Shown piece by piece: positions 1 through 58,437 of a stretch of DNA of 64,000 nt. Within the stretch, counting starts at the first letter, position 1; every line of letters starts with the position of its first letter. Both the position numbers and the translations under genes were made by a program. The DNA is from Cephalotus follicularis (taxonomy: Eukaryota > Streptophyta > Magnoliopsida > Oxalidales > Cephalotaceae), in NCBI GenBank assembly GCA_001972305.1, contig BDDD01002295.1, forward strand, positions 256,602 through 320,601, in the 5' to 3' direction. The notes under the pieces were generated by a model that was not told the DNA's origin, ran no database searches, and saw nothing but the letters and a program-made list of their open reading frames with translations.

Positions 1-713
1 ATTCCTTCTCTCTATCACATGCACCTCTCTTTCTCTCTTGTTTCTATCTCTTCCCACCTTTCTCTTCTTTCCATTCTGTTTTGCAGGTTGCGGGAGGATA
101 GAAGACATGCAAGCATGCCTTTTTGCATGGTCTGGCATCTCCTGTCTCGGGGGACACCTGCCCTCCATGCAATCCTCCTTTGGTTCAGTCTCACAGGTAT
201 GCACAGACACCTGTTCTGTACCGATCCAGTCGACTGGATGCATTGGTCAGTCGACTGTCCACAGCATGCATCAGGCAGTCGACTGCACCCCTGTGACAGT
301 CGGCTGCCCCTTCATAAACTAGGCAGTCGACTTCCCCCCTGTGGTAGTCGGCTGTCAAGGGCTATTTTATGGTTTCTTATGCTTGATTTTCACCAAATTG
401 CATCTCCATTCTTCCCAAGAAATTACCAATCACAAATTATAATAATTGGTCATTAAATTCAAATGAGTGCACATTTTATTAATCATTATTACAATGTACA
501 CGAATTGAATTTGCGGTTATTACAAGTATTGTAAAGGATTTGTATTGTATTAAATCGTATGGATGGATTATTGATATTGTAACTTCCGCAAATGAGATAC
601 ATTGCAAAGTTTTAAGTTTTTCCGCATTTTTATATTGCTAGTCCCGACCATTGTATTGTGTATTGGATAGAGAGTAATGCCACATGTCCGCCCTGCGGGT
701 GCGGGGTGTTACA
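1..713 (+). mobile_element. L1: 3' part of a Ty3/gypsy-type LTR, cut by the window edge
   Basis: The right end reads GGGGTGTTACA at 703-713, the usual terminus of the gypsy LTRs in this window (compare G4 at 20218-20227). It is followed directly by the 3' non-coding part of copia C1, so it is read as an LTR inserted into C1. The first 90 bases are pyrimidine-rich and end in TTTTGCAG/GT, which resembles a leader or splice acceptor. A motif array follows at 227-354. The 5' LTR end is outside the window, so whether this is a solo LTR or one end of a full element is unknown. The short reading frames here are not convincing coding. Confidence 0.7.
227..354. repeat. Array of the palindrome CAGTCGACTG (6 sites, 21/28-bp register)
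   Basis: Sites begin at 227, 248, 276, 297, 324 and 345, giving steps of 21, 28, 21, 27 and 21 bp. Three are perfect 10-bp palindromes and the others are one- or two-base variants such as CAGTCGGCTG. The bases between sites differ, so this is a spaced motif array and not a simple tandem repeat. Confidence 0.85.
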
Positions 714-1254
714 ATATGCATTTCATATTTCATTGGTGCATTCTTCCTTAATTTTGATGTTCTTGAAAAACAATCTAACGATTTGTAATTCGTTTTGCTA
801 TTGTGTCTATGAACAATTCAAAGTTTGTAATTCAGTTTGATATGGTGTTTTTCATTGTTAATCTACTTGGATGATTTGTAAAATGAAAACAATTGTTTAG
901 TTTGTTGTTTAAATGTTAGGAGTTGAATGGTTATTGATTTGTTGGTATGAATGGCTTGTAATGGATTTGATGTTATTGTGTTTTGTTAATTATGATTAAA
1001 CCTTTTTGATTGATAACAAAAAGGGGGAGAAAATAGTGAGGAGATTGATAGTGAGAAAATGACAAATTAAAATACCACTTGTAGGGCGAGTTAATGAACT
1101 AAGGTGGAGTTTATAAATTGAGGGGGAGTTATGTGTTTCTTTAAACTTATGCATTAATGTAATATTATTTTAAGTTGTACAATTTTTGTTTAAAAATGTA
1201 GCAATTTTTCTTTAAAAATGTAGCAAATTTTGTCATCATCGAAAAGGGGGAGAT
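714..1254 (+). mobile_element. C1: 3' untranslated internal remnant of a SIRE-like copia element
   Basis: This AT-rich stretch has no credible coding frame. It holds repeated purine tracts (near 1018-1030, 1117-1126 and 1241-1254), typical of the region between the last ORF and the 3' LTR of SIRE-like elements. It leads without a break into the LTR at 1255. All pol and ORF3 sequence of C1 lies to the left, beyond L1 and outside the window. Confidence 0.65.
1241..1254 (+). promoter_or_regulatory. Polypurine tract of C1
   Basis: The sequence GAAAAGGGGGAGAT directly abuts the TG of the LTR at 1255. This is the expected position for the plus-strand priming PPT of a copia element. The equivalent purine runs in C7 and C2 read AAGTGGGAGAT and AATTGGGAGAT on the minus strand. 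Confidence 0.8.
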
Positions 1255-2464
1255 TGTTGACATTTATGTCTCAATCCTAGTTTTGATGATAACATATTTG
1301 TATTTAACAAAGTTTCTTTTTGTGCAAGTAAAAATAGAATGTTGCAAAAACAAACCAGAAAACTGCAAATACAGGTTAAAGCGTCGACGCTTTAAAAGTA
1401 AGGGTCAACGCTTTGTGAAACTGTCGAAGCCTGGGTACAAAGCGTCAACAGTTGGAGCATTTCGAGCAAAGGAAAAATTTCCAAAACCATCAACGCTCTG
1501 AGGAAAGCGTCAGCGCTTTGAGGCTAAGAGCCAACGCTTAAGATGCCTATATCAGCGGTTAAAAACAGGGACTTTTGGGCCAATGAAAATTGCCCAAAGC
1601 GGCGACGCTCAACACAAACCGTCAGCGCTTTGAGGGAAACCGTCTACCCTAAAACTCAAGACCGCCAGCGCTTAGAGAAGAGTTTTCAAATTCAAAATTC
1701 CAACGGTCAGATAAGCGTCGACGCAAATTCCAACGGTCACATAAGCGTCGACGCTTTGCGCACTGGAGAAAATATTGACAGATTTTTAATGCGCCGTCTT
1801 TGAAGCAAAAAGCCCCAAGACATAACCAACGGATCTTTAACCTCAAAAACGGCTTCAGACACAACATTTCTGCACTGAACAAGTAGAATAACACAAGATT
1901 ATACAAGAGAACAAGAGAATAAAAAAGCTACATCAAGATCAATCAAGTACAAGAGCAAATCACAAACTTTCATATCAAAGAAAAGCAATATCAAGATCCT
2001 CTTTGTTTATTTGTGAGCTACAAATTTTCTGTAATCAAACCTTTAAGAGGTTGTCCAAAAACATAAATCATTCTTGTAATCTACACTTGTAAAGGGGAGT
2101 GAACCCTAAGTAAGCTTGGGGAGTGAATCCAGAAGAGAGATTGGGTAGAGAACCCATTGTGATTGAGGTCAATTACTAAAAATTGTAAGGTGTTACGATT
2201 TGCACCCTCAATCCTAAATCAAAGAAGGAAACTAGTGGAATCTCAAGAAGTTCCTTGAGAAAGTGGACGTAGGCACTACATTTACCGAACCACTATAAAA
2301 TTGCGTTTGGATCTCTCTAACTCTCTCTTTAATCGCATTTCTTAAATTACTTTATTTATTTGTTTTTGATTGCATATTTGAATGTGTCCATAATCTTAAT
2401 TTAAATTTAAAAAGTTCATTGATTTACTATATACTACAATTCACCCCCCCTTGTAGTACTTTCA
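1255..2464 (+). mobile_element. C1: 3' LTR, SIRE-like Ty1/copia (about 1.2 kb)
   Basis: The LTR starts TGTTGACATTTATGTCTCAA and ends ACTTTCA, directly after a PPT. The first 75 bases almost match the start of the C5 LTR at 34861. The end (a C-run, then TTGTA...TTTCA) matches the reverse-strand ends of C6 and C8. The U3 part carries a GCGTCGACGC array (1381-1756). I see no strong TATA box after the array, only TTTTTAATGC-like sequence near 1785. At 2465 it meets G1 in the middle of its pol, so C1 was inserted into G1; the right TSD copy would be CTAAC. Confidence 0.85.
1381..1756. repeat. Array of GCGTCGACGC-type motifs in the C1 LTR
   Basis: Core GTC (or its variants) begins at 1383, 1404, 1423, 1444, 1489, 1509, 1530, 1551, 1601, 1621, 1642, 1664, 1717 and 1747. 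Steps of 19-22 bp dominate, with gaps of 30-53 bp where a site appears lost. Perfect palindromes occur at 1381, 1715 and 1745. Variants such as GTCAAC fit CpG decay and others such as GTCAGC do not. The spacer sequence is unrelated from step to step. Confidence 0.85.
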
Positions 2465-3486
2465 CTAACTTCCAAGTTCAACCTTTGGAAATTTCTCACT
2501 AATTCCACCTGTGTGGTAATCATGATTGCTAAATTTCCCGTGCTCTTTTGACTCACGGCGTTTTCCTCGACATTTGCTTTTCATGGATGATACTGAATAG
2601 TGCAGTCATAATCCTTAATAAGTTCCAGCCATCTCCTTTGCCTCATGTTTAACTCCTTCTAGGTAAAAATATATTTAAGACTTTTATGATTGGTGAAAAT
2701 TTCACACTTCTCTCCATATAAATAGTGCCGCCAAATCTTTAGTGCAAAAATGACTACATTCAATTCAAGATCATGAGTAGGGTAATTCTGTTAATGCACT
2801 TTAAGCTGCCTAGAAGCATAAGCGATCACATTCTCCTGTTGCATCAACACGCAACCAAGCCCTTTGCGAGACGCATCACTATACACCACGTAACCTTCTG
2901 ATCCAGAGGGTAAGGCTAATATTGGTGCATTCATCAATCTCTCCTTTAATTCCAAGAAACTCCTTTCGCATTGGTCGGACCATTCAAATTTGACATTCTT
3001 CTGTGTCAACCTTTTAAGAGGGTTCGCAATACGAGAGAAATTTTTGACAAATCTTCGATAATTGCCTGCCAATCTCAGAAAACTTCGTATTTCGACTATC
3101 GATGTTTTTCTCTGCCACTCTCTTATCGCCTCTGTCTTAGCGGGGTCTATTGAGATACCTTCCTCTGTGATCACATGACCCAAAAAGGATACCTCCTCCA
3201 TCCAAAATTGGCATTTACTGAACTTAGCATAAAGCCGTTCCTTCCTCAGTGTTTATAACAAGCTAATCAAGTGCTCTTCATGCTCCTCTCGACTCTTTGA
3301 GTATACTAAAATGTCATCAATGAAAACTATCACAAACAGATCCAAAAATTCGCTAAATATCCTATTAATCAAATCCATGAATACAGCTGAAGCGTTCACT
3401 AATCCAAATGACATTACCAAAAACTCGTAATGACCATATCTTGTTCTAAAAGAAGTTTTTGGTACATCTTGTTTCTTAACCTTCAC
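2465..3486 (-). pseudogene. G1 pol remnant: RT palm C-terminus and RNase H of a gypsy chromovirus-like element
   Basis: On the minus strand 3486-3253 encodes the RT palm with the catalytic box [10 protein letters not shown], the gypsy form of the YxDD motif. After a break, 3201-2791 encodes the RT thumb and RNase H start ([16 protein letters not shown], then [16 protein letters not shown], then [18 protein letters not shown]). RNase H-like sequence continues in degraded frames to about 2600. The integrase is absent because the C1 LTR interrupts at 2465. Stops and at least two frameshifts show it is dead. In life this enzyme copies the element RNA inside virus-like particles. Confidence 0.85.
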
Positions 3487-3525
3487 TTGATGGTAACCCG
3501 ATTGAAGATCAATCTTCGAAAAATA

Positions 3526-12930: not shown

Positions 12931-13559
12931 TGCCACACCCTGTTTTCACGAACAACATTTAAATGGTAGCAATTAACATAATATCCTAGCTTATCCATTT
13001 TCAAGATAAAATTTAAACTTTCAAATAGTTATAACACTTACGGAAGCATTCGATAATAAGCCGAATTAAAAACGCAACATGCGTCCCATACCACGTGTTA
13101 CCAATAACATAATTAAACCATTGTTAATTACCATTAAACGGAGCATGAATTAAAATATTCGTTACGGTATCTGATCATATACAGATATCCATCAAATACA
13201 TTATCCCCTTTAATACAGTTATCCAAAAGATTAATCTATTACAATAATCGGAAATCCATCAGTTACAATAACATAACACAATAACAATTTAGTAATCCTC
13301 AACAGCGATTACAACTCCACCAGTCAACATTATTACAACTTATACTTCTCCCTGCTTGTTCACATTGGTCCCACTGTATCAACTTAAAGTAGTAGGGGGT
13401 TAGCATTTGTCCTCATTCGGCTTATAAACGCAGTTCGGGGTCAATAATAATGAGGTCATGTATGAATGCATAATGATGCAGTACATTATATATAACAATA
13501 CATATACATATATTTATATGTATATTTATCAGTATAACTAAACATGTCCTCAGGGGGAC

Positions 13560-13745
13560 CACTCAATCACATTCAGTACAAACAATGCCCACGTTACTTG
13601 CATGGCAGCATTAACAACAGTCCGGACACCGTAAACGATACTAGCACGGCGGCTAAGTACCAACAGTACCCCGCTAACGGCAATAGTAGAAACGATACCT
13701 AGCACGGTGGCTAAGTAACAACAATAACCCGCTAGTGGCAACAGT
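13560..13745. repeat. CTAGCACGGYGGCTAAGTA short repeats in the G3 LTR
   Basis: The phrase AGCACGGCGGCTAAGTACC and close variants recur (near 13640 and 13700), with CAGTA/CAACAG strings between. The same phrases occur in the right LTR (22810-22900) and in gypsy LTR G5 (39753-39815). They mark a conserved sub-block of this LTR family. Confidence 0.6.
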
Positions 13746-14084
13746 AACAACCACATTCAACAGTCAACTTAAGTGATGCATAGTTATAGACACTTGAAAC
13801 AGTAATATCGATGTATAAGCCCTCTCTTAAATAGTTCACAATAATTGGGGATTACTTCCCCAGTCATTCGAAAATATATGTATTTTCGTACAAAATAAAG
13901 ATTCGCTTAAAATCATGTATAAACTTCAAAAATGATAAAACACTTTAGAAAACAGTCACAATTCGTTTCATAATTCAGTTGACAATACAATATATAATGC
14001 AAACATATGCTCATAATGCATCTATGATCATTGACGTCGCGCCTATGTTTACCACCTTTTCGAAGATACAATTATTCTCTATAA

Positions 14085-14276
14085 CAGTCGGCTGCTTTCC
14101 ATAACAGTCAGCTGTTCCCTTGAGTTAGTCGACTGTCTTCCTTAGCAGTCACTAATCTGGCACGAGTATCAACAGTCGACTGTTCTGGGCAGGCAACACA
14201 TGCACAGTCGACTGTTCTTCTTAACGGTCGGCTGTATACTTTGAGCAGTCGACTGTTGTACCTCAACGGTCGGCTG
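14085..14276. repeat. CAGTCGACTG array, 9 sites, in the G3 left LTR
   Basis: Sites begin at 14085, 14105, 14126, 14146, 14173, 14205, 14225, 14246 and 14267. The steps are 20, 21, 20, 27, 32, 20, 21 and 21 bp. Forms include CAGTCGACTG, CAGTCGGCTG, CGGTCGGCTG and CAGTCAGCTG. The spacers are unrelated to each other. Confidence 0.88.
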
Positions 14277-14844
14277 TTATGCGAAAAACAGTAGCACTCA
14301 ATTCATTATATTTCATCCAACATTCAATTACAAACCATTCTACCATATTCATACCATATCATATCATGAATGATCACTTCACAGTCCACAGACATAACTC
14401 AGTTCATGCATTTTCTCCGTTTTATCACAATATAAGTGGAAGCCAACCATGGTAATGCAAGAAAACCAATGATTCTCAATTAAACTCAGTACACATATAA
14501 TGTTAACAATCAACAGTAAGCACGATATTTATTCCTTTATTTCACAGTCCATTAACCACCCGATTCATCAATAACATCATTATTTTTAAACTCAAATAGC
14601 ATGTATAATTGCTCCACAATTTTCCCCTACCTTTGCTTTCAAGTTAGTAATCTGTAAGTCCACCTCTTTATGTCTCCTTTCCCGTAACTTTGAGCTTCCC
14701 AGTAGCGCCAAGAACAACTCAGTAGCTCCAACCCGAGCTCCAAGCTTCAACAATGGAGGGTCTCCTTTTCTCTCACAATTTCTCACTAATCTTTCTCTGG
14801 TTTCTTTCTTTCTCAATGCTCAGAGAGGGGGACGAAGAGAAGAG

Positions 14845-14855
14845 TGTTTTTATGC
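14845..14855 (-). promoter_or_regulatory. TATA-like box in the G3 left LTR
   Basis: The minus strand reads GCATAAAAACA, followed by a pyrimidine-rich stretch (CTCTTCTCTTCGTCCCC). The same block is conserved in the right LTR at 24041-24051. This is the most likely U3 promoter of G3. Confidence 0.55.
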
Positions 14856-15095
14856 AGTGATTCTCTCCCCCTCTCCCTTATCCCGTTTGCATGGAACTAA
14901 ATGCCATTTTCCCCCTTCAACAAATGCATGTACACACATATGTCACTCCCCTTCTTCCAACTCAGTCTTTGCAAGTTCAGGAGCTGTGGTGCATGTCTGC
15001 CACGTTTTATTTGGCATCTGATGGTGCCTGAAAGATGCCCTTTTTGTCAGTTGTTGCATGTGATCTCGTCACATGCAACAAAATAGAGCACAAAC

Positions 15096-15196
15096 CAGTC
15101 GGCTGTTCCTCCCAGATAATCGACTGTTTTCTTGGCCTTGGTTACCATGTGGCTCGACAGCCCGCCAGTCGGCTAGTATATTGTACCAGTCGACTG
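15096..15196. repeat. Second CAGTCGACTG cluster in the G3 left LTR (4 sites)
   Basis: Sites begin at 15096, 15117, 15166 and 15187, with steps of 21, 49 and 21 bp. It lies upstream of the TATA-like box in the element's sense. The right LTR has six sites here (24292-24440). Confidence 0.85.
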
Positions 15197-15350
15197 CCCC
15201 AGTCCACATTTCAACAATTATACTTCCAAGTTCTTAATTTTATTTGGAAATCAACATATTAGCCAGAAAACTCATCTTTCTCATTATTTCAATAATAATA
15301 TTACATTTGAGATTTGAATATTACAACCAGCTAAAATCCCTGGCGTTACA

Positions 15351-16860
15351 TCCAACCCTCCTTCAAGGAATTTCATCCTCAAAATTGTAACAGTACTAGA
15401 ACAAGTACGGGTAACAATCTCGGATATCATCCTAACGTTCCCAAGTGGCCTCATCCGGATGGTGGAACTGCCATTGAACCTATACCATTGAAATGGTTTG
15501 GTTCCTCAACATTTGTGTCTTCCAATTTGGAATCCGCACTGGCGACTCCTCGCAAGAAAGGTCATCTCACACAGGAACCGAATCATAATCCAAGACATGT
15601 GATGGGTCTCAGATTTATCTCCTCAGTATAGACACATGAAAGACGTCGTGAACGTTCGACAGTGCAGGAGGTAAAGCAAGCTGGTAGGCTACCTCTCCAA
15701 CTCTCTCCAGAATCTCAAAAGGACCAATATAGTGTGGGGCTAACTTGCCCCTTTTCCCAAACATTTGCATGCCCTTCCATGGTGAAACCTTCAAGAATAC
15801 ATGATCGCCAACATCGAAGGCTAAAGGCCTCCTCTTGACACTGTCAACATAGCTCTTCTGTCAGCTTTGAGCAGTAAGCAGCTTCTCCTTCATCACTTTG
15901 ACTTTCTCTGAAGTCTTTTCAACCAGGCCAGACCCAAGCAATGGTCGCTCACCAACCTCATCCTAACAAATGGGTGATCTACACTTCCTCCCATATAGGG
16001 CCTCGTATGGGGCAATAGATATACTGGAGTGATAGCTATTATTATATGAAAACTCTATCAGAGGGATGTGGTCCTCCCAAGTACCTTCAAAGTCAATAAC
16101 ATAGGCTCGAAGCATATCCTCCAAGGTCTCGATGGTACGCTCAGACTGTCCATCTGTCTAAGGATGAAAGGCAGTATTCAGGTTCAGCCTCATCCCGAAA
16201 GCTATCTGAAATCTCTTCCAGAAGTTGGAAGTGAAGATCGAATATCTGTCACAAACAGTACTTACAGGAACACCGTGCAGTCTTACAATCTCCTTAACAT
16301 ACAGTCAAGCCAACTTGCTCGCTGAGTCTGTGACATGAGTGGGTAGAAAATGAGCTAACTTCGTGAGTCTATCCACGATAACCCACACAACATTGTGGCG
16401 ATGTCTAGTTACTGGGAAACCCGAAACAAAGTCTATAGTTATGTGTTCCCACTTCCACTACGCCACTGGCAATGGTTGCAATAACCCTGCCGGTCTCTGG
16501 TGTTCGGTCTTGAACTGCAGACAAAGTCAGACACTTTGCAACGTACTCGACAATCTCACATTTCATACCTGACCACCAGTAATTCATTTTCATATACTGA
16601 TATATTTTGGTACTACCAGGATGGATACTGTACCGAGACTTTTGAGCCGTATAGAGTAACTCACTCTTCAATTCGTGTTCATCCGGAAGACACACCCATC
16701 CCCGAAATCTCAGAATACCATCGGCGTGTACCTGAAAATCAGACTCTAGGTCCAGGTTCTCTCGAATATGTTACAATTCAGGATCATGTGCTTGAGCGTT
16801 CTTTATTTTGTCAAGCAATGCTGGCTGTACTCGCATGTCAGCCACAAAGATACCCGGTGA
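15351..16860 (-). pseudogene. G3 integrase with C-terminal chromodomain remnant
   Basis: On the minus strand, 16695-16405 encodes the integrase zinc-binding region (SRYSIHPGSTKIYQYMKMNY, then CEIVEYVAKCL), with the CxxC end damaged. The catalytic core follows in broken frames. Near 15480-15405 the sequence reads VQWQFHHPDEATWE followed by a stop and DDIRDCYPYLF, the signature of the chromodomain at the end of Tekay/Del integrases. That domain is thought to guide insertion to heterochromatin. An AAGGAGGGTTGGA purine tract next to the LTR (about 15363-15351) is the PPT. Confidence 0.8.
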
Positions 16861-16869
16861 CTAATTAAA

Positions 16870-18153
16870 TGGGGACTACTCTTGGAAGCCTTCCAACATT
16901 TTCCATTGCGATACCATCGTACTGGCAATCATAGCCTTGAAACTCAAGGTATCAATGTCCACATTCGCTTTCCCCGGGTGATACTGAACACTGCAATCGT
17001 AGTCATTAAAGAATTCCACCCACCTTCGTTGCCTCATGTTCAGTGTATCCTGGCAGAATAGTTACCTCAAACTCTTATGATTTGTAAAGATTTCAAACTG
17101 CGCCCCATAAAGATAGTGCCTCCACTTCTGAAGGGTGAAGATAATCGATGCGAGTTCAAGGTCATGTGTCGGGTAGTTCTCCTCACAGGTTTTCAACTTC
17201 CTCGAGGCATATGCAATCACTCTGCCCCACTGCATTAACACACAGCCCAAGCCCTTACTCGATGCATCGTTGTAGACTGCAAAACCCTTATCACCCTTAG
17301 GTAATGCCAAGATAGGTGCAGTAACTAACCGATTCTTCAGTTCACAGAAACTAGCTTCACAATCTTCATCCCATACAAATAACATCTTCTTTTGGGTCAG
17401 TCCAGTCAAAGGCACGGCTATCCTTGAAAAGTTCTGGATGAACCTCTGATAATACCCCGCCAATCCAAGGAAGCTACGCACCTCCGTCACATTCTATGGT
17501 TGCGGCCAGTCTCGCACATATTCGGTCTTTGACGGATCCACCGTCAAGCCTTCTCCAGATACGATGTGATCGTGAAAGATCACATGATCAAGCCAGAACT
17601 CACACTTGCCAAACTTGGCGTACAATCGATGCTCTCTGAGAAAATGCAATACTAACCTCAGATGATGAGTGTGTTCCTCCTCACTTCGCTAGTATACCAG
17701 TATATCATCAATAAACACCATGACAAACTGATCCAGGTATGGATGGAATACGTCATTCATCAATGACATGAAAGCTACTGGTGCATTGGTAACACCAAAC
17801 GGCATCACCAAGAACTCGTAGTGACCATATCATGTCCAGAAGGCAGTCTTCTCAATATCTCCTTCCCTTACTCTCAGCTGGTGATAACCTGACCTCAAAT
17901 CGAGTTTGGAAAACACCCTCGACCCTGGATGTGGGGTAAAGGATACTTGTTCTTGTTAGTTGCCTTATTCAACATTCGGTAGTCGATGAAAAGCCTCATC
18001 GACCCATCCTTCTTCTTAATAAATAACACAGGGGCACCACACGGAGAAACACTGGGTCTAACAAAACCTTTATCGATTAGGTCTTGCAACTATAACTTCA
18101 ACTCTCGCAGCTCCGCAGGAGCCATCCGATAAGGTGCTTTGGAGATAGGAGCC
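16870..18153 (-). pseudogene. G3 RT palm to RNase H
   Basis: Reading on the minus strand, RT fingers ([20 protein letters not shown], 18089-17895) are followed by the palm with VFIDDILVY and an immediate stop near 17690. The thumb/RNase H frame runs 17490-17062 ([20 protein letters not shown], then [20 protein letters not shown], then [20 protein letters not shown]). In the first RNase H motif an Asn (YND) stands where Asp is usual (YSDAS), so activity would be lost. Several frameshifts and stops occur. The frame is interrupted at 18153 by G4. Confidence 0.88.
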
Positions 18154-36150: not shown

Positions 36151-36155
36151 TAATT

Positions 36156-38011: not shown

Positions 38012-38025
38012 ATTTACTTTTGTAG

Positions 38026-40445: not shown

Positions 40446-40959
40446 TAAGCGAACCAAAACACGGTTCCTTCAACACGTCTCAAAACCAATAGGACTCAAT
40501 CATAAAACACATGCCATTCAATCCGCAATCATTGTAAAACGCAATATGCATTACAGGTTAACTATTCATAGTAACCCTAACAGAATCACAGTCACACAAT
40601 TCACAATCCGCAAACCAAGCATTTCATCAATAGCAATACAATATTATTGAACTCAAACTTGCATGTATAGCTTCCCCTACCTGTTACAGCAGTAACAACC
40701 GTACAGTCGAGCTGCATGTTTAATTGCCGAACCTTTTCGATAACCGTTGAACTGAAGCCGGTTCTTGCCAATTGATCAGTTCCTCACTGCCAAATCCAAT
40801 TGCCACTTACACACTGCACATACAACACATTTCCGTTATGTTCCACACACAAAACATTTCCGTCGTCGAAACGCCGGCCGGATTTTGACCGACACAACCA
40901 GGCGACGAAACACCCATCAACGGGTTCCACATTGAACGGTCTACTCAAAACTGGTCAAG

Positions 40960-41170
40960 ACTCGCTGGGAATCGGCGCTGAACGCCGCGCCACGGCTGGC
41001 AGTGAGTTACGACTCACTGAGTCAACTCGCCAGACCTCCACAAGTCCGATCACCACCCAAAAATGCCACATAAACACCAGTTATATGCGTTAATGCCCGT
41101 GACTCGCCGAGACTCGGCGCCAAACGCCGTGTCTCAGGTGACAGCGAGTCAACTCGCTGAGTCGACTCAG
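40960..41170. repeat. GACTCGGCG / GACTCACTGAGTC module cluster in G5
   Basis: It contains AATCGGCGCTGAACGCCGCG, GACTCACTGAGTCAACTCGC, GACTCGCCGAGACTCGGCGC with CAAACGCCGTG, and GAGTCAACTCGCTGAGTCGA. These are palindromic GAGTC/GACTC elements. Nearly the same phrases occur in the LTRs of copia C7 (47760-48065 and 60455-60770). Confidence 0.75.
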
Positions 41171-41842
41171 TCAATTAATTCCGGCCGTTTTCGGCCGAAT
41201 CACGCCTCACCGGTGGTCGAAATGGGTAGAGCTAGTCCTCTACTCCAAAACCCACACCACCCGCGACGCTAATGGCGCCGGGAAACGCCGGGAAAGAGGC
41301 GCAACAATGGTGGGGAGAAAAGAAGAAAAAGAGGAGGAGGGGGAAGGGCTTACCGGCGGGTTGAGGGTCTGGGTTGCTCGCCGTCGTCCCCTGTTCCGGT
41401 GGGTAGCTCCGGCGCCCTCTCTCTCCCTCTGCTCCGATCTCTCTCCCAATCCCTCTCGTACTCTCTCCCTGTCTTTCTCTCCCTCTAATCTGCAGGTTCA
41501 ATTAGCACGGGCGCGCTATGCGCCCGTGTCTCTCCCTTTTCTCTTTTATTATTTTTCCTTCCCCCTTAATATTTTCTGGTAAAATACTAAGGTCTGGGTC
41601 CCAATTTTTCCGTAAATCGCGACATAAATTATCCAAACGACCACCAAAATAATCGCAATAAAAATGCGAGCATTCGGGCTTTATTGTCGATCGTTAAAAA
41701 TAGGTTTTATTAGTCGTCTTAGCTAACACGATTACGACTTAAATACGTAATGCGTTTTTATTACTCCGGGCTCTATCGATTTTATCACGATCGTACACGC
41801 ACCAATTTCATAATAATTATGTATGAAATTCGAGGCGTTACA

Positions 41843-41929
41843 AAAATAGTCATCTTTGCTTTCCAGTGACTGTAGTTGTTACTGTCGAAGAAAGGAGGCT
41901 TTGAGATAGACATGCTCTCTTTGGTTGAT
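41843..41929. other. Unassigned 87-base segment between G5 and the C6 right LTR
   Basis: It may be internal C6 sequence. Nothing is recognised in it. Confidence 0.3.
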
Positions 41930-42372
41930 GAATAATAGAGCAATAACAAACAAATAATAATTTAAAGTGAAGAGAGTGGGGATAGAAAGATTCTCTGTTT
42001 TTAGAGTGGTTCGGCTCACTCTTGCCTACGTCCACTTTTCCTAAGGGATCTCCTTGAGTTTCCACTAGCTCGAATTGATTAAGGAAGCAATTCGTTACGC
42101 CTCACAGTTTTGTGATTGACCTCAATCACTAGACCTTGACCTCAAGACCTTTAGAGGATTCACTCTCCTCTTTTACAAATGTTTGTAAGGTGTTTACAAT
42201 GTAACCTCTCAGTAGGTTTGGCTTATAATAAAGAACAAGAGAGAATTACAGAAAGAACTTCAGAAAAAAATAAAGCTTTGAAGCTAAGAGCTCTTTGAAC
42301 TTTGTATAATGAAACCTTACTTGATTGCTTTAGTTCTTTGTTTCTTGGGGATTTCTGAAGGCTTGGACCCTA

Positions 42373-42384
42373 CTTTATATAGCC
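42373..42384 (-). promoter_or_regulatory. TATA box of the C6 LTR
   Basis: The minus strand reads GGCTATATAAAG, about 100 bp after the last motif of the array. The equivalent position in C8 reads GGCTATAAAAGG. Confidence 0.75.
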
Positions 42385-42482
42385 AAACAATCCATGTATC
42401 CGTTGCTTAAATCATGGAGATTTAGATTTGAAAAACTGATGATTTGCTGTAAACTCTATTATGTAGCTGTTGGAGCAAAGCC

Positions 42483-43090
42483 GTCGATGTCTGTGATAAG
42501 TGTCGATGCCTTTACCAGTTTACTAGCCGTTACGAGAATCCAGGGCGTAATTGTTGTTGAAAGACGTCGATGTCTATAAATGGCGTCAATGTCTTTTCTG
42601 GAGTTGTCGACAGTCTTTGAAGATATGAGCAACACATCGATGACTTTAATGGGCATCGATGTCCTTTCTGGAAACATAAAAGTTATGACAAACACATCGA
42701 TGTCTTTGTAAAGGGATCGATGTCTTTTGATTGGACGTCGATATATTCATAGAATGGGATCGATGCTTTTCTTCAAAAATGGCCTGTAACTTTTATGGCA
42801 TAAACACATCGATGTCTTTGTAAAGGGATCAATGTCTTTGAGTTAAACAGTCGATGTCTTCTCTGAAATAGATCGATGCCTTTGAATGAAAATTGCCTGT
42901 AACTTTCTGTGCTAAAGACGTCGATGTCTTCTCTGAAAGGGATCGATGTCTTTAGTAAAAAATGACCTGTAACTTTGGGTGCTAAAGACGTCTATGTCTT
43001 TGGAGAAAAGGATCGATGTCTTTCATGAATAACCACCTGTAACTCCTGGTTCTTTAAAGGCGTCGATGTCTTCCTTCAATAGCGTCGATG
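42483..43090. repeat. CGTCGATGTCTTT motif array in the C6 LTR
   Basis: About 25 copies of GTCGATGTC or ATCGATGTC occur. Example core positions are 42483, 42502, 42566, 42585, 42606, 42636, 42655, 42696, 42716, 42737 and 42759. Most steps are 19-22 bp. Copies are followed by CTTT and separated by unrelated bases. Confidence 0.88.
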
Positions 43091-43210
43091 TCTTTTATGT
43101 AAAAATGATTTTTGACTTTTGTGAGATATCAAGTATCTTGCACATAAAATAAACATGTTAAAAGCAAACATGTTATCATCAAAACTAGGATTGAGACTAA
43201 AACATCAGCA

Positions 43211-45659: not shown

Positions 45660-45850
45660 AAACAGAGCAAAGCCTCGACGCCCAGAATGTAAGCGTCAGT
45701 GCTGAACACTATGCTTAGAATTAGAATTTTGCAAAAAAATGCAAAGCGCCAGCGCCTGAATTAAAAGCGTCAGCTCTTTACACTGAAGTTAGGGCTCGAA
45801 ATATGAAATTCAAACAAAGCGATGACGTTTTAAATAAATTCGTTGACTCT
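45660..45850. repeat. Motif array in the C5 spacer between pol and the third ORF
   Basis: It contains GCCTCGACGCCCAG, AAGCGTCAGTGCTG, AAGCGCCAGCGCCTG, AAGCGTCAGCTCTT and AAGCGATGACGTTTT, degenerate members of the same motif family as the LTR array. It lies just upstream of a TATA-like TATAAAA (45861-45867) and of the third ORF. Confidence 0.7.
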
Positions 45851-45860
45851 TTAGTCGGGT

Positions 45861-45867
45861 TATAAAA
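45861..45867 (+). promoter_or_regulatory. TATA-like box before the C5 third ORF
   Basis: TATAAAA in the context GGGTTATAAAACCCTG lies about 120 bases before the ATG at 45989, with an AC-rich leader between. It may be an internal promoter, inferred from position only. Confidence 0.45.
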
Positions 45868-45988: not shown

Positions 45989-46852
45989 ATGCCTAGAAGT
46001 AAACACATTGAGGATGGCCAAGGTTCAAGAACAAAAAATAAGCATCTTGGGGAAAAGAAGAAGAGGAGAACTGTTGATCCACCATCACCACAGGAGATTC
46101 TGCCAGTACCAAGGCATCTCGAAGCCTACTTTGACCGAAAAAAACTTGTAGGAAAGACCTCAGATTTTGACTTTTTCAATAGTGAAGGTTTCCCCATTGT
46201 AGGATGGCTAGAAACTCAAGGATTAGCCCATTTGTTTCAAATTAATTTGCCCTACTATCCTAAGCTCATAAAGGAATTTTATGTTAGGATTCTACCTAGC
46301 TCTAAGGTAGATTTAAACACAACTATTAAACATACGGAGATAGGATTTAGCTGCTCAACTCTAGCCACTATCTTAAACATCCCATATGATGGTGCTAGGG
46401 GTTGGAATCAAAGAATTGGATTATTAATGATGACTTTAACAAAGAAGAGTGTGTGAGAATGTTATTTGGAGAAAATCCTGCTTGTATGCAAAGAATGTAT
46501 ACTAGGAATCTTAGCTTGCACCATAGGTTCCTACACCGCGCCATTTCCACACATATCCTACCTAAGGCCGGTAGTTTTGATGAAGTAACCCACATGGAGG
46601 CATACAAGATGTATCACATTATCACGGGTAAAAAGATTAATGTGCCCAACTTAATAATCCACCATATGCGAGCAATACATGAAATGGAAAATGTTAGGCT
46701 AGCTTATAGTACAATAATCACTAAAATACTCATGCATTTTGGAGTTGATTTGAGTGGAGAGCTACACCACTCACTCTAAAGCACGGATAAGCTAGGAAAA
46801 GGGACCCTAGGTAGAATGGGGTTTAAGAAGCATAAGAGACTAGGGACTTGGA
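45989..46852 (+). pseudogene. C5 third ORF (plant-transposon-domain protein), frameshifted and truncated
   Basis: The first frame (45989-46456) reads MPRSKHIEDGQGSRTKNKHL..., FDFFNSEGFPIVGWLETQGL, INLPYYPKLIKEFYVRI and CSTLATILNIPYDGAR. After a frameshift near 46400, the frame 46402-46779 continues with LHHRFLHRAISTHILPKAGS, FDEVTHMEAYKMYHIITGKK and INVPNLIIHHMRAIHE. This is the domain described in plants as a putative plant transposon protein, found after pol in SIRE-like elements. It aligns in order with the intact C8 copy (54479-55666). G6 cuts it at 46853. Function is unknown; env-like roles have been suggested for such third ORFs. Confidence 0.8.
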
Positions 46853-47329
46853 TGTAACACCCCGTAGCTATTTTAGAAGTCTAAGATTTTTTTTTAAGGT
46901 GAATAATTTTGGTTTTATGGGCTTTGGACTTAATTGAGTAAAAGAGGAAAGTTAAGTATTGTTAAATGTTATAAGCCCAAGTGTAAATCATGATTAGTGA
47001 TAGTTAAAGGACTTAAGTGCAAAACTTGTTGAGGAAGCTTCCTAATCCCAAGCTAAATGACGGCTTATGTTGGGAGTTGTGGAGATATATCTGGTGATGA
47101 AGTCTTTCTTTTCTTTTAGTTACAGCAGACTAGAGAGTTTTAGAGCGAGAGAGATAGCTCTAGTTCTTCTTCTTCTTCTTCTTCTTTGTTGACGAGCGGG
47201 AGGAGAACAGCAGTTCGAAGCTTTCCAAGCTTAGTGGAGAAGCATCCAGGCGCTGTAGCAGACGAGGAGATAGAGGAGAAGTTATCGTCAGAGGAAGCTA
47301 GTTAGAATGCAGCCAAGAACTGTGAGTGG
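46853..47329 (+). mobile_element. G6: 5' part of a gypsy-type LTR inserted in the C5 third ORF
   Basis: It starts TGTAACACCCCGTAGC, the standard chromovirus LTR start; the TSD candidate is TTGGA (46848-46852). It contains a CT-rich leader with a (CTT)n run (47169-47191). It is split by C7 (TSD AGTGG) and continues at 62381. No coding is seen. Confidence 0.75.
47169..47191 (+). repeat. (CTT)n microsatellite
   Basis: Seven to eight CTT units lie in the pyrimidine-rich leader of LTR G6. Confidence 0.8.
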
Positions 47330-53186: not shown

Positions 53187-53726
53187 AGAATTGAAATAAA
53201 ACACTCTTGCAATATACAAGAGGGGGGGTGAATTGAATATCGAGGAATATGCAAAAATTTAAAAACTTTAAATGTAAATAGACAAGGAAAGAAAAACTTC
53301 TCCGAGTTTTAGAGTGGTTCGGCTAACTCTTGCCTACGTCCACTTTTCCCAAGGGAGCTCCTTAAGTTTCCACTATCTCGATTTGATTAAGGCAGCAAAT
53401 CGTTACACCTAACAAGTTCGTGATTGACCTCAATCACAAGACTTTGACCTCAAAGCCTTTAGAAGATTCTCCTCTTTTACAAGTAATATGAAAAGTGTTT
53501 ACAATAACCTCTTAAGTAGGTTGATGTGAATAAATATAGCTCACAAAAAGAAACACTCAGTTACACTCAAAGAAAGAAGCTTAGAAGCTTTGTTGAACAA
53601 TGTGGAGCACTTTGAGTGTTTGGCACACTAGATAGCTTGAATTGGATTTCTCTTGATGTTGTGTGATTGATGTAGATGATTCTGAATTGTAGTAGTTCTT
53701 GGTATATCTTCTGAGGTTTCATGCTT

Positions 53727-53738
53727 CCTTTTATAGCC
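53727..53738 (-). promoter_or_regulatory. TATA box of the C8 left LTR
   Basis: The minus strand reads GGCTATAAAAGG, about 95 bp downstream of the last array motif (53833). It is repeated in the right LTR at 57694-57705. Confidence 0.82.
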
Positions 53739-53832
53739 TGAAAAGGTTTATAGCCGTTGCTTAAATTGTGGAAGCTTTTGATTAAAGAATGTGAGTTGCA
53801 TTTGTTGAATTTATCTCTGCTGGTACAAAGAC

Positions 53833-54350
53833 GTCGACTTCTTTGAGAAAGGCGTCGATGTCTTTTGGTTGGTAGCCGTTGGAAGTGGTTAAACTAGCCG
53901 TTCCAGCTTTCCCGGGTGTTGTCTTCTTGAAAAGGCGTCGACTTCTTTTTGAAAGACGTCGATGTCTTTTCTGGGAAATCTCCAGGTGCAGAGGCTTTGA
54001 GTGTCACGTCGATCTCTTCCTTGTAGTCGATGCTTTTTCTGGGAATTATGAAAATGGCGTCGATCTCTATTGAAAGGCGTCGATGTCTTTTACTTGGACG
54101 TCGATGTCTTTTGCTGAGGATCGATGTCTTTGAGTGCATTTTCATACAGTAGCTTCTGTCCAAAAAATGACTAATCGCGTCGATGTTTTCACTGAAGTAG
54201 TCGATGTCTTCTTGAATGTAGTCGACGTCTTCTGGAAGTAGTCGATGTCTTTTGGTACGGACGTCGATGCCATAACTGGGTGGACGATGCTTTCTTTGCA
54301 GTTAATTCTGTTACAAAAGGCGTCGATGCTATTTGGAAAGGAGTCGACTT
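53833..54350. repeat. CGTCGATGTCTTT motif array in the C8 left LTR
   Basis: Core positions include 53833, 53854, 53937, 53958, 54008, 54026, 54059, 54079, 54100, 54120, 54179, 54200, 54221, 54241 and 54263. Clean runs show steps of 21, 21, 20 and 22 bp. The motif GTCGATGTCTT or GTCGACTTCTT is constant while spacers vary. Confidence 0.9.
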
Positions 54351-54427
54351 CTTTTTCTGCAGATGGTTTTAGACTTTGATATTCAACTTGTAATTCCTTG
54401 CACATCAAGTAACTTAGTTAGATGCAA

Positions 54428-54452
54428 NNNNNNNNNNNNNNNNNNNNNNNNN
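54428..54452. other. Assembly gap (25 N)
   Basis: An N run of 25 replaces the start of the C8 3' LTR and the PPT. The true gap length is unknown; about 45 LTR bases are expected from the right LTR. Confidence 0.98.
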
Positions 54453-54478: not shown

Positions 54479-55666
54479 CTACTGTTGTAGAAGATACTGA
54501 ATTTCCAGTGTCCTAAGATCACCTTCCAATCTTCCGACCCGAGTCTTGATCTCCTGAAAATCTTCCTTAAAAGAGGATTGCATGGAAGTGAAATGATCTT
54601 GCAGGGATTGCATCATCTCCATGATCCTGTCAAGGTTAGCAGTGGATGAGGAGGGGGCTGTCTGTGCAGGGGCAGAGGCTGCTGGTGCAGGGGCATCATG
54701 TTCCCGAGGGGGGTTGTCCTCTTGCTCTTCCCTTGCAAGCCTAGGAGCTTGATCCGCTCTAGGGTGATATATCCATATACCTTGCTCCTTCTTCCAGCCC
54801 ATTCTGTTCAGCGTACTCTTATTGTACGTATCCTCCTTCTTCAATTTTGTTGAGATCTCCCCTTCAAGAGGAATGTGATAGTGTAGGAAGACAAGAGTGA
54901 GAAGGGATCCATAAGGAAGGACTGATTTTTTTTGGGAATAAGCACGTACCATAGTTTTGAGAATCAAGAGGGGGAAACAAAATTCGATCTTTGATATAAT
55001 GCACCACATGATAAACACTTGCATCCGAGATAATTTGGCATACCCTCCACCGGTGGGTAAAATTTGATGCACAATGAGGTGGTGGAGGAGCCGATGATCA
55101 ACAGACAGACGATTGGTTGTCAAGGCCATGTTTGGATGGACGTTGGGATCATTTGGATACAAAACGAAGAGAATTTGGTTAGGGTGAAAACCCTCAACCT
55201 CCGGCCATTTTTTATGTTCGAAAACATAAATGCCGTTATGTGGAATATGAAGAATTGAAGCTAGAATTCTAGCATCAAGATACATACGCTGACCTTTAAC
55301 AACAGAAGTAACAACGAATTCTTGGTTTTGTTCCGAAACCATTTTGAGGTTTGAGTAAAAATCTTTAACCAATTTTATATAAAAAGGGTTAGAGATTTGG
55401 ACAAGAGGGAGTAAATGTAGGTTATCTAACCATGAAACAAAAGCAAATTCGGAGGAACAGAAATCATAATCTATATTTCTTCCTCCCATAACCCGTTTTT
55501 CTACAAAACTTAGGGTTCGGATTGGAACAGGGTGTTCTGATGAGGAATCGAAGTGGGAAGACTCAGAAGATGATTCCCTAACCTCTAATCTCTGCTTCTT
55601 AGCAGATTTCTTTGGTTGGGAAGGCGAGATAGCCTTCTTTTTGGTAGCTTTCTTTGTCCTTGGCAT
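54479..55666 (-). CDS. C8 third ORF: putative plant transposon-domain protein, 395 aa, intact
   Basis: A single uninterrupted frame runs from an ATG at 55666. Residues 1-27 are very basic (MPRTKKATKKKAISPSQPKK...), NLS-like, followed by a Ser-rich acidic stretch. Residues about 50-280 form the domain seen after pol in SIRE-like elements: SFVEKRVMGGRNIDYDFCSS, LVQISNPFYIKLVKDFYSNL, ILASILHIPHNGIYVF, DHRLLHHLIVHQILPTGGGY and KSVLPYGSLLTLVFLHYHIP. A Pro/Ala-rich linker (about 310-345) and a C-terminal coiled coil (MQSLQDHFTSMQSSFKEDFQ onward) complete it. I see no signal peptide or membrane segment, so an envelope role is not supported. A degenerate relative is in C5. Function is unknown. Confidence 0.85.
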   Translation of the reverse strand: MPRTKKATKKKAISPSQPKKSAKKQRLEVRESSSESSHFDSSSEHPVPIRTLSFVEKRVMGGRNIDYDFCSSEFAFVSWLDNLHLLPLVQISNPFYIKLVKDFYSNLKMVSEQNQEFVVTSVVKGQRMYLDARILASILHIPHNGIYVFEHKKWPEVEGFHPNQILFVLYPNDPNVHPNMALTTNRLSVDHRLLHHLIVHQILPTGGGYAKLSRMQVFIMWCIISKIEFCFPLLILKTMVRAYSQKKSVLPYGSLLTLVFLHYHIPLEGEISTKLKKEDTYNKSTLNRMGWKKEQGIWIYHPRADQAPRLAREEQEDNPPREHDAPAPAASAPAQTAPSSSTANLDRIMEMMQSLQDHFTSMQSSFKEDFQEIKTRVGRLEGDLRTLEIQYLLQQ

Positions 55667-55874: not shown

Positions 55875-56160
55875 GTCGACTTTTTATGTAGAAGTCGAGT
55901 GTCTGAGGAAAAGACGTCGACGTGATTCCAAAAGGAGTCGACGCGATTTTAAAATTTGGCTATAAAAACGGTGCGTTTTAAAAAGGATCGACGTATGTTG
56001 AAAAGAGGTCGATGTGTTTTAGAAAAAACACAAAAGGATCGACGTCTTTCAAAAGAAGTCGACGTGATTTTCATAAGATGCAGTTTTTCCAGAAAAGGAG
56101 TCGACTCTATTTTACAAAGCACAAAAAATTCCAGAAAAGGAGTCAACGTTTTTCAATGCA
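55875..56160. repeat. GGTCGACG motif array between C8 pol and its third ORF
   Basis: Core positions include 55875, 55893, 55916, 55937, 55987, 56008, 56038, 56058 and 56100. Steps of 18-23 bp dominate. Motifs include GACGTCGACGTG, GAGTCGACGCG and GGATCGACGT. It is a separate array from the LTR ones but has the same core. Confidence 0.85.
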
Positions 56161-56256: not shown

Positions 56257-57157
56257 TCATTCAAGTTCACATAATCCTAATTCTCTTCTAAACTTAGAAA
56301 AAGAATTCTCATCTAAGGGCTTGGTGAAGATATCCGCCACTTGTTTTTCGGTGGGGATATACTCTAGCAAAATGTCACCAGATTCTACATGTTCTCTTAG
56401 GAAATGATACCTAATGTCAATGTGTTTTGTCCTAGAGTGATGTACGGGGTTCTTGGCAAGACAAATACTACTAGTATTATCACACTTAATGGACACATTC
56501 TTAACATAAACACCGTAATCAACTAATTGTTGTTTTTGCCAAAGAATTTGCGCACAACAACTACCAACAGCTATGTATTCAGCCTTAGTGGTGGATAAAG
56601 CTACTGAATTTTGCTTTTTGCTAAACCAAGATACTAGCATGCTTCCTAGGTATTGGCATGAACCACTAGTACTCTTACGGTCTACTTTATAACCACCAAA
56701 ATCGGCATCCGAGTAAGAGTGCAAATCAAAACTAGAGTCTCGGGAATACCATAAGCCTAAGGTAGGAGTGTATGCAAGATACTTAAAAAATTCTTTTCAC
56801 AGCAAATAAATGAGATTCTTTTGGATTAGATTGAAAACGGGCACACAAGCACACACTAAATAAAATGTCGGGTCTACTTACTGTCAAGTATAACAAAGAA
56901 CCTATCATACTTCTATAAAGCTTTTGATCGATACATTTACCTTGTTCATCTTTGTCAAGCTTTGTAGAGGTACTCATTGGTGTCTTACTTGTTTTAGCAT
57001 TCTCCATCCCAAACTTCTTGAGAATATCCTTTGTGTACTTCGTTTGGTTGATGAAGATCCCATCTTTATTTTGTGTCACTTGTAGTCCGAGAAAGTAGTT
57101 GAGTTCTCCCATTAAGCTCATTTCAAATTCGGCTTTCATTGTATTTGAAAATTCCAT
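56257..57157 (-). pseudogene. C8 RT C-terminal part and RNase H
   Basis: The frame 57157-56783 reads FEMSLMGELNYFLGLQVTQN, IFINQTKYTKDILKKFGMEN and LYLTVSRPDILFSVCLCARF. After a one-base shift near 56785, the frame 56724-56257 gives RNase H (HSYSDADFGGYKVDRKSTSG, LSTTKAEYIAVGSCCAQILW, IKCDNTSSICLAKNPVHHSR, KHIDIRYHFLREHVESGDIL). The RT catalytic YVDD is absent because the region before 57157 is deleted. It is closely related to C5 pol. Confidence 0.9.
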
Positions 57158-57159
57158 TG

Positions 57160-57320
57160 TTGTGAATGAAACACTTACATCCGAATGCTCGAAAGTAACT
57201 AATGTTAGGCTTTCTCTCCTTCCATAACTCGTATGGAGTCTTTTTGAGAATTGGCCTTATTGATGTTCTATTTAAAATATAACATGCGGTGTTTGTGGCT
57301 TCCGCCCAAAAATACTTTGG
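57160..57320 (-). pseudogene. C8 integrase fragment between two deletion junctions
   Basis: On the minus strand it encodes the end of the integrase (FWAEATNTACYILNRTS, then KKTPYELWKERKPNI, then FGCKCF). On one side it is fused to the LTR at 57320/57321 with a 2-base GG overlap. On the other side it jumps at about 57157-57175 into the second half of RT. These are two separate internal deletions. Confidence 0.8.
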
Positions 57321-58437
57321 GGAGCTCCTTAAGTTTCCACTATCCCGATTTGATTAAGGCAGCAAATCGTTACACCTCACAAGTTCGTGATTGACCTCAA
57401 TCACAAGACTTTGACCTCAAAGCCTTTAGAGGATTCTCCTCTTTTACAAGTAATATGAAAAGTGTTTACAATAACCTCTTAAGTAGGTTGATGTGAATAA
57501 ATATAGCTCACAAAAAGAAACACTCAGTTACACTCAAACAAAGAAGCTTAGAAGCTTTGTTGAACAATGTGGAGCACTTTGAGTGTTTGGCACACTAGAT
57601 AGCTTCAATTGGATTTCTCTTGATCTTGTGTGATTGATGTAGATGATTCTGAATTGTAGTAGTTCTTGGTATATCTTCTGAGGTTTCATGCTTCCTTTTA
57701 TAGCCTGAAAAGGTTTATAGCCGTTGCTTAAATTGTGGAAGCTTTTGATTAAAGAATGTGAGTTGCATTTGTTGAATTTATCTCTGCTGGTACAAAGACG
57801 TCGACTTCTTTGAGAAAGGCGTCGATGTCTTTGGTTGGTAGCCGTTGGAAGTGGTTAAACTAGCCGTTCCAGCTTTCCCGGGTGTTGTCTTCTTGAAAAG
57901 GCGTCGACTTCTTTTTGAAAGACGTCGATGTCTTTTCTGGGAAATCTCCAGGTGCAGAGGCTTTTAGTGTCACGTCGATCTCTTCCTTGTAGTCGATGCT
58001 TTTTCTGGGAATTATGAAAATGGCGTCGATCTCTATTGAAAGGCGTCGATGTCTTTTACTTGGACGTCGATGTCTTTTGGTTGAGGATCGATGTCTTTGA
58101 GTGCAATTCCATACAGTAGCTTCTGTCCAAAAAATGACTAATTGCGTCGATGTCTTCACTGAAGTAGTCGATGTCTTCTTGAATGTAGTCGACGTTTTCT
58201 GGAAGTAGTCGATGTCTTTCGGTACGGACATCGATGCCATAACTGGGTGGACGATGCTTTCTTGGCAGTTAATTATGTTACAAAAGGCGTCGATGCTATT
58301 GGGAAAGGAGTCGACTTCTTTTTCTACAGATGGTTTTAGACTTTGATATTCAACTTGTAATTCCTTGCACATCAATTAACTTAGTTAGATGCAAATATGT
58401 TATCATCAAAACAAGGATTGAGACTTAATCGTCAACA
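57321..58437 (-). mobile_element. C8 right (5') LTR, truncated at its 3' end
   Basis: On the minus strand it starts TGTTGACGATTAAGTCTCAA at 58437. It contains the array (58330-57795) and the TATA box (57705-57694). The last 160 or so bases of the LTR are lost with the PBS in the deletion at 57320/57321. Differences from the left LTR are few, such as C/T at 57345. Confidence 0.9.
57795..58330. repeat. CGTCGATGTCTTT motif array in the C8 right LTR
   Basis: It has the same order and nearly the same spacing as 53833-54350, starting with AAGACGTCGACTTCTTTG near 57796 and ending GGAGTCGACTTCTTT near 58310. Confidence 0.9.

Follow-up and report, generated by a model that had tools for sequence, protein, structure and literature searches.

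GTCGAC-core palindrome arrays in Ty3/gypsy and copia long terminal repeats of Cephalotus follicularis: putative phased sites for a dimeric DNA-binding protein

The stretch of DNA analyzed here (64,000 nt, hereafter the window) belongs to the carnivorous Australian pitcher plant Cephalotus follicularis and consists of nested plant long terminal repeat (LTR) retrotransposons; the Rfam scan and the tRNA scan of the window gave no matches. A preliminary description of the window had claimed that LTRs of both gypsy and copia elements carry arrays of palindromes with the core GTCGAC. This claim was borne out. We describe the arrays, which come in several flavours (CA, GC and AC in the window, defined below), together with an extra open reading frame (ORF) bearing the PF20167 domain. 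The features of the window are as follows.

227-358, unstranded: CA-flavour array (L1 of the preliminary description), gaps mostly 21 bp; the sequence runs off the window.
1255-2430, plus strand: copia LTR C1, GC-flavour sites 1381-1754, LTR end approximate; polypurine tract (PPT)-like tracts at 1022, 1121 and 1245, directly upstream.
12931-15350, minus strand: gypsy G3 3' LTR, CA arrays 14087-14275 and 15098-15208.
15351-22113, minus strand: G3 internal region, with integrase zinc-binding (16408-16770), RNase H (17065-17493) and protease (20466-20834) domains.
22114-24594, minus strand: gypsy G3 5' LTR, 88% identical to the 3' LTR, CA sites 23281-23470 and 24363-24452.
34861-36105, plus strand: copia LTR C5, GC-flavour sites 34989-35461, end approximate.
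36141-38745, plus strand: C5 element, gag and the beginning of pol, broken by the C6 and G5 insertions.
38760-43205, minus strand: copia LTR C6, AC-flavour array 42482-43093, split by a nested gypsy LTR; boundaries by eye.
39192-41928, minus strand: gypsy solo LTR G5, GC-flavour array 40273-40442; gypsy by LTR homology, part-homologous to the G3 LTR.
45660-45867, plus strand: C5 internal promoter sites of GC flavour, three 14-mers matching at 11 or more of 14 positions; last core 19 bp before TATAAA (45861).
45990-46870, plus strand: interrupted PF20167 ORF of C5, clade B.
53192-54427, minus strand: copia C8 3' LTR, AC-flavour array 53833-54349.
54482-55666, minus strand: C8 PF20167 ('Transposase_32') ORF, clade A, E 6e-22, with basic N-terminus and C-terminal coiled coil.
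55875-56148, minus strand: AC-flavour array of 10 sites preceding the C8 PF20167 ORF, outside any LTR.
56257-57256, minus strand: C8 copia pol remnant (RVT_2).
57320-58427, minus strand: copia C8 5' LTR, AC-flavour array 57800-58316, CTATAAAAGG at 57694-57703; TATA box and LTR end by eye.

A run of 25 N (assembly gap, 54428-54452) lies at the edge of the C8 3' LTR.

GTCGAC occurs 42 times in the window, against 9.3 expected from base composition. In a 264-kb sample (258 kb without N), made up of the window and 20 tiles of 10 kb from the same genome, the exact core was found 131 times versus 21-30 in five dinucleotide shuffles, and the core with at most one mismatch 918 times versus 602-662. 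Among the 64 palindromic 6-mers it ranks first by observed/expected ratio (5.9). The density is 0.85 per kb in detected LTR pairs versus 0.40 per kb elsewhere, where 'elsewhere' takes in LTRs without a detected partner. Exact copies of the longer motifs lie in the window at the places implied earlier: 10 of CAGTCGACTG, 5 of GCGTCGACGC and 14 of CGTCGATGTC. Genome-wide (1.577 Gb, 9,746 contigs), pairs of CAGTCGACTG with 5-30 bases between them number 48,675, versus 165 for the reversed control, and GCGTCGACGC pairs 4,230 versus 7.

The unit of the arrays is a 14-bp palindrome, AACAGTCGACTGTT, AAGCGTCGACGCTT or AGACGTCGAYGTCT, in which the bases round the core define the flavour: AACA.TGTT (CA), AAGC.GCTT (GC) and AGAC.GTCT (AC). 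A fourth flavour, CGTYRACG with a GTYRAC core, occurs in one lineage (clade C, below). CGTCGATGTC, which we, like the preliminary description, first took as a motif of its own, turned out to be an off-centre reading of the AC flavour AGACGTCGAYGTCT. The site scans were seeded on GTCGAC with at most one mismatch, or on the three flavour strings, so that very different cores would escape them. The earlier notion that the flanks define types agrees with the tallies: of 269 array sites, 86 have dyad-symmetric flanking dinucleotides, versus a mean of 35 and a maximum of 53 in shuffles, and flank identity is 0.34 inside arrays versus 0.13 across arrays, although array calls without a consistent flavour were kept in these counts. 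Such flavourless runs (e.g. window 60418-60561) are probably due to chance. Not all arrays lie in LTRs, as had been claimed: the one at 55875-56148 precedes an ORF. Not every LTR family has arrays: the 47330/60023 pair contains one GTCGAC per LTR, and two 2.6-kb LTR pairs in contig C1 contain none.

Both retrotransposon superfamilies are represented among the carriers. The G3 LTRs enclose Ty3-type protease, RNase H and integrase zinc-binding domains, while copia domains were found in the C8 and C5 elements. Elsewhere in the genome, the L018/L019 element encodes Ty3 gag, RVT_1 and integrase, with a chromodomain match below the Pfam cut-off, and the L015/L016 element encodes Ty3 gag, protease and RNase H. 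The two LTRs of the latter differ by about 0.5 kb that holds the second CA array (L016 2760-3255) and that only one of them has. Locus L042 holds a gypsy element whose LTRs are 98.7% identical over the 558 bp that match there; both LTRs have four intact CAGTCGACTG sites, at spacings of 21, 28 and 21 bp. Since CA arrays occur in elements with Ty3 domains, the motif arrays are not restricted to Sireviruses.

The preliminary description had also stated that gypsy and copia LTRs are unrelated, and that the homologous G3 and G5 LTRs carry different flavours; both points find support. When the motifs were masked in 26 array pieces, 12 pairs still matched, copies of one family among them, but none joined gypsy with copia, although the short spacers of 7-11 bp give this comparison low power. 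Unmasked, matches link 25 of the 26 pieces. The G3 and G5 LTRs share a block that is 85% identical over 82 bp, with a CA array about 420 bp away in one and a GC array about 450 bp away in the other. Similarly, gypsy LTR L014 (CA) and LTRs L019 and L011 (GC/AC) have neighbouring blocks that are 72-74% identical and differ in flavour. Gypsy and copia thus have the motif, its spacing and its place in common, in surrounding sequence that differs as far as seen.

The sites are regularly spaced. With one mismatch allowed in the core, distances between sites show a peak at 21 bp, with 81 pairs observed versus 1.8 in shuffles, and again at 42 bp (38 versus 2.4), with weaker peaks near 31 and 50 bp. 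In the phasing test, which used hand-chosen intervals and sites matching at least 9 of 14 positions of the three flavour strings, the best period was 10.3 bp for gypsy (116 sites, vector strength R 0.57, maximum of 500 jittered controls 0.27), 10.2 bp for copia (83 sites, R 0.65, maximum 0.34) and 10.4 bp for clade C, where the intervals were whole 3.7-kb loci (172 sites, R 0.56, maximum 0.24). Some elements contributed both of their LTRs, and related copies are among the sites, so that these counts overstate independence. Periods of 10.2-10.4 bp correspond to the helix repeat of DNA, and the sites therefore lie on one face of the DNA.

The position of arrays upstream of the LTR TATA box was read directly in three copia LTRs. 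The C8 array ends (57800) about 100 bp before the TATA box, TATATAAAG, near 42374-42382, follows the C6 array at about 100 bp (both TATA boxes by eye), and in clade D the array ends 51 bp before the TATA box (L001 1723 and 1774). In three gypsy LTRs (G3, L016 and L018), reading by eye placed one array in U3 and another downstream of the promoter, the latter behind a splice-donor-like sequence; the L018 reading is the least certain. In the G3 3' LTR, the array at 15098-15208 is in U3, some 240-350 bp upstream of CATAAAAA near 14850 (promoter by eye), and the array at 14087-14275 is downstream of the promoter in a presumed intron.

The copia carriers appear to be Sirevirus-type, judging from RVT_2, Retrotran_gag_2, PPT-like tracts and an extra ORF, which bears PF20167 and lies after pol in clades A and B. 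PPT-like tracts are several in L022, in L038 and before C1 and single in L035, and the pattern gave no matches in L026. The extra ORF encodes a protein with a basic N-terminus, a further domain and a coiled coil. The Pfam scan found PF20167 in all 36 ORF proteins, and otherwise weak matches, many of them to coiled-coil families (25 families shown of 29). Protein matches point to this plant: the best match of the copia gag is a C. follicularis protein (82%), and the 120 listed of 777 matches are mostly from Cephalotus with a few from other plants; the PF20167 ORF has matches of up to 96%, the 120 listed of 384 being all from Cephalotus; and a clade C ORF matches C. follicularis in 96 of 96 cases.

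We compared 20 elements bearing this ORF: C8 (clade A); the element at 45.7 kb of the window, L022 and L035-L040 (clade B); L025-L034 (clade C); and L002 (clade D). The ten clade C loci were picked for long open frames from 150 scored PF20167 places (13,073 candidates) and six of the clade B loci likewise from 150 (10,909 candidates), while a genome-wide list of CA-pattern matches led to L042 and to the clade D element. The median dN/dS is 0.15 for 34 diverged clade C pairs and 0.18 for 13 clade B pairs, saturated pairs yielding no value; the ORF is under purifying selection. In the copia-derived elements L025, L031, L033, L034 and L001/L002/L041, the PF20167 ORF stands behind gag without a pol being seen in the interval; it is open or nearly so and retains its promoter sites. 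The idea that clade C ORFs, upstream of which no pol was found, are gypsy genes was rejected, as 4 of the 10 upstream frames read by eye as a copia-type gag end; the L033 piece had no Pfam match, and no gag end was identified in the other 6 loci. In L026-L029, an opposite-strand stretch about 1.1-1.4 kb past the ORF resembles the coiled-coil end of the PF20167 ORF.

The PF20167 ORF has array sites of its own. At least one 14-mer (at least 11 of 14 positions matching a flavour string) precedes it in all 20 elements and at least two in 17, and by the one-mismatch core count there are at least two sites in 18 of 20. The 14-mer totals compared with shuffles are 4 versus 0.08 in clade A, 32 versus 0.26 in B, 23 versus 0.76 in C and 6 versus 0.07 in D. 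A TATA-like box follows the start of a core by 18-20 bp in 14 of the 18 promoters of clades B and C.

The flavour of these internal sites follows the lineage of the ORF. When they were scored with matrices built from the LTRs, the matrix of the element's own clade came out on top in every one of the 19 elements from clades A-C. Clade D is one element, whose LTRs (L001 and L041, 96% identical) and ORF promoter (L002) all have CA sites; when it was added, in a run that pooled the clade C LTR sites with L034 included, the matched assignment of flavours was the best of 24. For the gypsy CA arrays (59 sites), the clade D matrix gave 13.3 bits and none of the other matrices more than 6.0, and the G5-type gypsy arrays fit the clade B and C matrices equally (13.2). 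Thus, both gypsy flavours that were scored have a counterpart among the PF20167 lineages. Conservation among diverged copies is also higher for sites than for spacers, both in the internal promoter of clade C (0.78 versus 0.70, rank 6 of 281 mask shifts) and in the copia AC LTRs (0.80 versus 0.62, rank 8 of 432).

The preliminary description had interpreted the arrays as a cis-acting module of flank-defined types, common to copia and gypsy LTRs, and this part of its interpretation stands, the simplest reading being recognition by a dimeric protein; the phasing, the PF20167 ORF and the sites in the internal promoter were not visible to it. Symmetry, phasing, TATA distance and conservation together make it highly probable that the arrays are promoter sites for a dimeric protein, acting at the DNA level. 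We propose that each array is a cluster of putative sites at which a sequence-specific protein would bind DNA as a dimer, the dimers being aligned on one face of the DNA at intervals of about 21 bp or two helical turns, and that the LTR promoter would thereby gain an enhancer or an anti-silencing element. In the Sirevirus-like copia elements, the arrays would also serve the internal promoter of the extra ORF. The most likely binder would be the PF20167 product, which occupies the place of the Sirevirus env-like gene and could switch on its own promoter and the LTRs of its element, so that flavours would co-evolve with the protein. Matching sites would have been acquired by those Ty3/gypsy elements that lack the ORF, which would exploit the same factor in trans. 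That the PF20167 protein is the binder and that gypsy uses it in trans we hold as nearly balanced, the doubt being slightly the larger, and the combined reading of phased enhancer or anti-silencing sites, PF20167 product and use in trans is likewise put forward at a little short of even confidence. It is possible, though more tentative still, that the Sirevirus env-like ORF is in general a lineage-specific DNA-binding activator or anti-silencer rather than an envelope gene, and that gypsy elements evolved matching arrays and so joined one trans-acting network.

If the proposal is true, then it has consequences. The shared flavour of ORF promoter, LTR and gypsy LTRs predicts that each PF20167 protein binds its own palindrome. 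Retrotransposon superfamilies would share or steal activators, so that one element would parasitize another transcriptionally, and silent chromatin could be addressed in a sequence-specific way through phased arrays, as it is through the VANC protein (below).

Several observations weigh against the proposal. The gypsy carriers examined showed no PF20167 ORF, and tblastn gave no PF20167 match in the G3 internal region, so that a binder encoded in cis cannot hold for gypsy. PF20167 has no recognized fold or known DNA-binding domain in Pfam, the PDB profile search or a single-sequence model: the profile search found no solved relative, its three matches (E 1.3-2) covering the coiled-coil part, and the model (pLDDT 43) was confident for the coiled coil alone. 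L035 and L036 have one core site each before the ORF, which shuffles match in 96 and 93 of 200 cases. The TATA distance of 18-20 bp is not seen in C8 or clade D and is 39 bp in L025, and no TATA-like box was recognized in L038-L040. Close ORF pairs show higher dN/dS (for instance 0.81 and 0.52). As for the matrix scores, the matrix applied to element A came from that element's LTR, a single site underlies each of the results for L035 and L036, and the margin in L040 is narrow (5.24 versus 5.16); clades A and D are one element each, and since clade D was fetched as a CA-array match it is no independent test, leaving a permutation P of 1/6 for A-C alone. The array downstream of the clade C ORF in L034 is AC-like, unlike its own promoter. 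The conservation excess is weaker in the GC LTRs (0.80 versus 0.705, rank 57 of 484), and there is no difference in the clade C LTRs (0.945 versus 0.941, rank 216 of 449) or the G5 set (0.917 versus 0.918, rank 182 of 290), two sets in which copies are 92-95% alike within the array. The AC-like array of L034 lies at 2900-3500 and possibly belongs to a different inserted LTR.

We also considered a distinctly possible alternative, that host transcription factors bind the arrays and that unrelated LTRs converged on the sites of abundant or stress-induced factors. Such factors would cover gypsy and copia alike and would require no PF20167 ORF. The CA sites, CAGYCGRCTG, contain GTCGAC or GCCGAC, which we take to be like the DRE/CRT core of CBF/DREB proteins, and, counting both strands, the 264-kb sample contains CAGCCGACTG 37 times. 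In the excerpted text of Bousios et al. 2010 (PMC2829016), the PLACE matches of Sirevirus boxes are mainly sites of stress-related factors. Much of the clade C flavour is GTCAAC or GTTGAC. However, the positions that vary differ from one flavour to another (GYCGRC for CA, GTYRAC for clade C), so that several host factors would be needed. Moreover, a monomeric AP2 protein would not need a dyad-symmetric site of 10-14 bp, and flavour tracks the ORF lineage.

Physical movement of the module between LTRs by recombination or template switching, that is, common descent rather than convergence, bears on the origin of the arrays and not on their function, and seems unlikely. One flavour is common to gypsy CA arrays and copia clade D, and homologous gypsy LTRs have different flavours beside a shared block, both of which would fit such transfer. 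The masked comparison speaks against it, subject to its low power, and an old, eroded transfer would still agree with that result.

It is rather improbable that the palindromes act in RNA, with transcripts folding into hairpins that signal or supply small-RNA silencing, an idea put forward for the palindromes of maize Sirevirus. In all 8 arrays examined, the RNA folds more stably than its dinucleotide shuffles do (z -2.7 to -5.7; three control regions -1.8, -0.1 and +1.1), but any palindrome array folds, so that these z-scores do not discriminate. Small RNAs map to the maize palindrome clusters according to excerpts of PMC10760457 and PMC5311732, citing Bousios 2016. However, RNA folding needs neither helical phasing of DNA nor a fixed TATA distance, and arrays before the TATA box are upstream of the start site. 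Finally, neutral short tandem duplication (a minisatellite with decayed spacers) is barely credible: a few blocks are true tandem repeats, but phasing is also near 31, 42 and 50 bp, and a CpG-bearing motif should decay at least as fast as its spacers, the opposite of what two diverged sets show, the other three being unclear.

The window contains further features. A 75-bp unit (CAAAGATGCTAACCGGCCCCGAGCTAGGAAAGC...) occurs in three tandem copies at 39507-39730, within G5, the solo gypsy LTR. A 26-bp tandem repeat, CGAGATGAACCATAAGGGTCACCGAC, is present in 4.3 copies at 33674-33787, outside the annotated elements. A DUF4283 fragment lies at 31840-32406 on the minus strand, and since zf-RVT was also found in one of the 72 window ORFs scanned, it is probably a LINE-type remnant.

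Several known systems resemble the one proposed here. The foamy-virus protein Tas is one factor that serves both the LTR promoter and an internal promoter driving that factor itself. The arrangement of an LTR promoter and a self-driving internal promoter is alike; foamy viruses are animal viruses, and we claim no homology. VANDALs are DNA transposons. In Arabidopsis, their protein VANC binds the repeated motif YAGTATTAY, and demethylation has been demonstrated by experiment (excerpts of PMC5735166 and PMC10398659). Both systems have noncoding repeated short motifs that differ between related families and an element-encoded binder, proven for VANC and putative for PF20167. They differ in that binding and demethylation by VANC are experimental, whereas the PF20167 link is a match between flavour and lineage. 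The Pfam scan of the 36 ORF proteins turned up no sequence link between PF20167 and VANC, no direct comparison having been made.

For other species we drew on the literature alone. Maize Sirevirus elements have palindrome clusters in the cis-region of the LTR, as in Cephalotus, but these are discussed as RNA structure and small-RNA hotspots in excerpts of PMC10760457 and PMC5311732, in which Ty3 elements are generally without a structure peak and the Copia palindrome also occurs in Helitrons.

The closest counterpart is the RM box of Sireviruses (Bousios et al. 2010, PMC2829016, from excerpts of which the following is taken). These boxes are palindromic, occur in 8-32 copies upstream of the LTR TATA box and of the env-like gene, have an element-specific sequence with a CGG-CCG core, and were called Sirevirus-specific on the basis of a Ty1/copia set; Tnd-1 is also without the CGG-CCG signature. 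The function of the plant Sirevirus env-like gene is described as unproven in excerpts of PMC2829016 and PMC3414828. The preliminary description knew of no described system of this kind; this does not hold for the copia half, which is of the RM-box kind as far as those excerpts go. Both systems have many palindromic copies per element, before the LTR TATA box and again before the env-like ORF, as well as repeated PPT-like tracts, and the Vitis (grapevine) box CGGTCGACCG contains GTCGAC, although that box itself occurs 0 times in the 264-kb sample. The Cephalotus core, in contrast, is GTCGAC/GTYRAC without the CGG-CCG signature, and the arrays also occur in Ty3/gypsy LTRs, for which the titles, abstract openings and passages returned by searches of open-licence papers gave no report of such arrays; searching for the motif together with LTR retrotransposons brought up no relevant paper. 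Compared with the Sirevirus boxes as they appear in those excerpts, Cephalotus thus adds Ty3/gypsy carriers, helical phasing, a match between flavour and ORF lineage in four copia lineages, and the PF20167 protein as a candidate binder.

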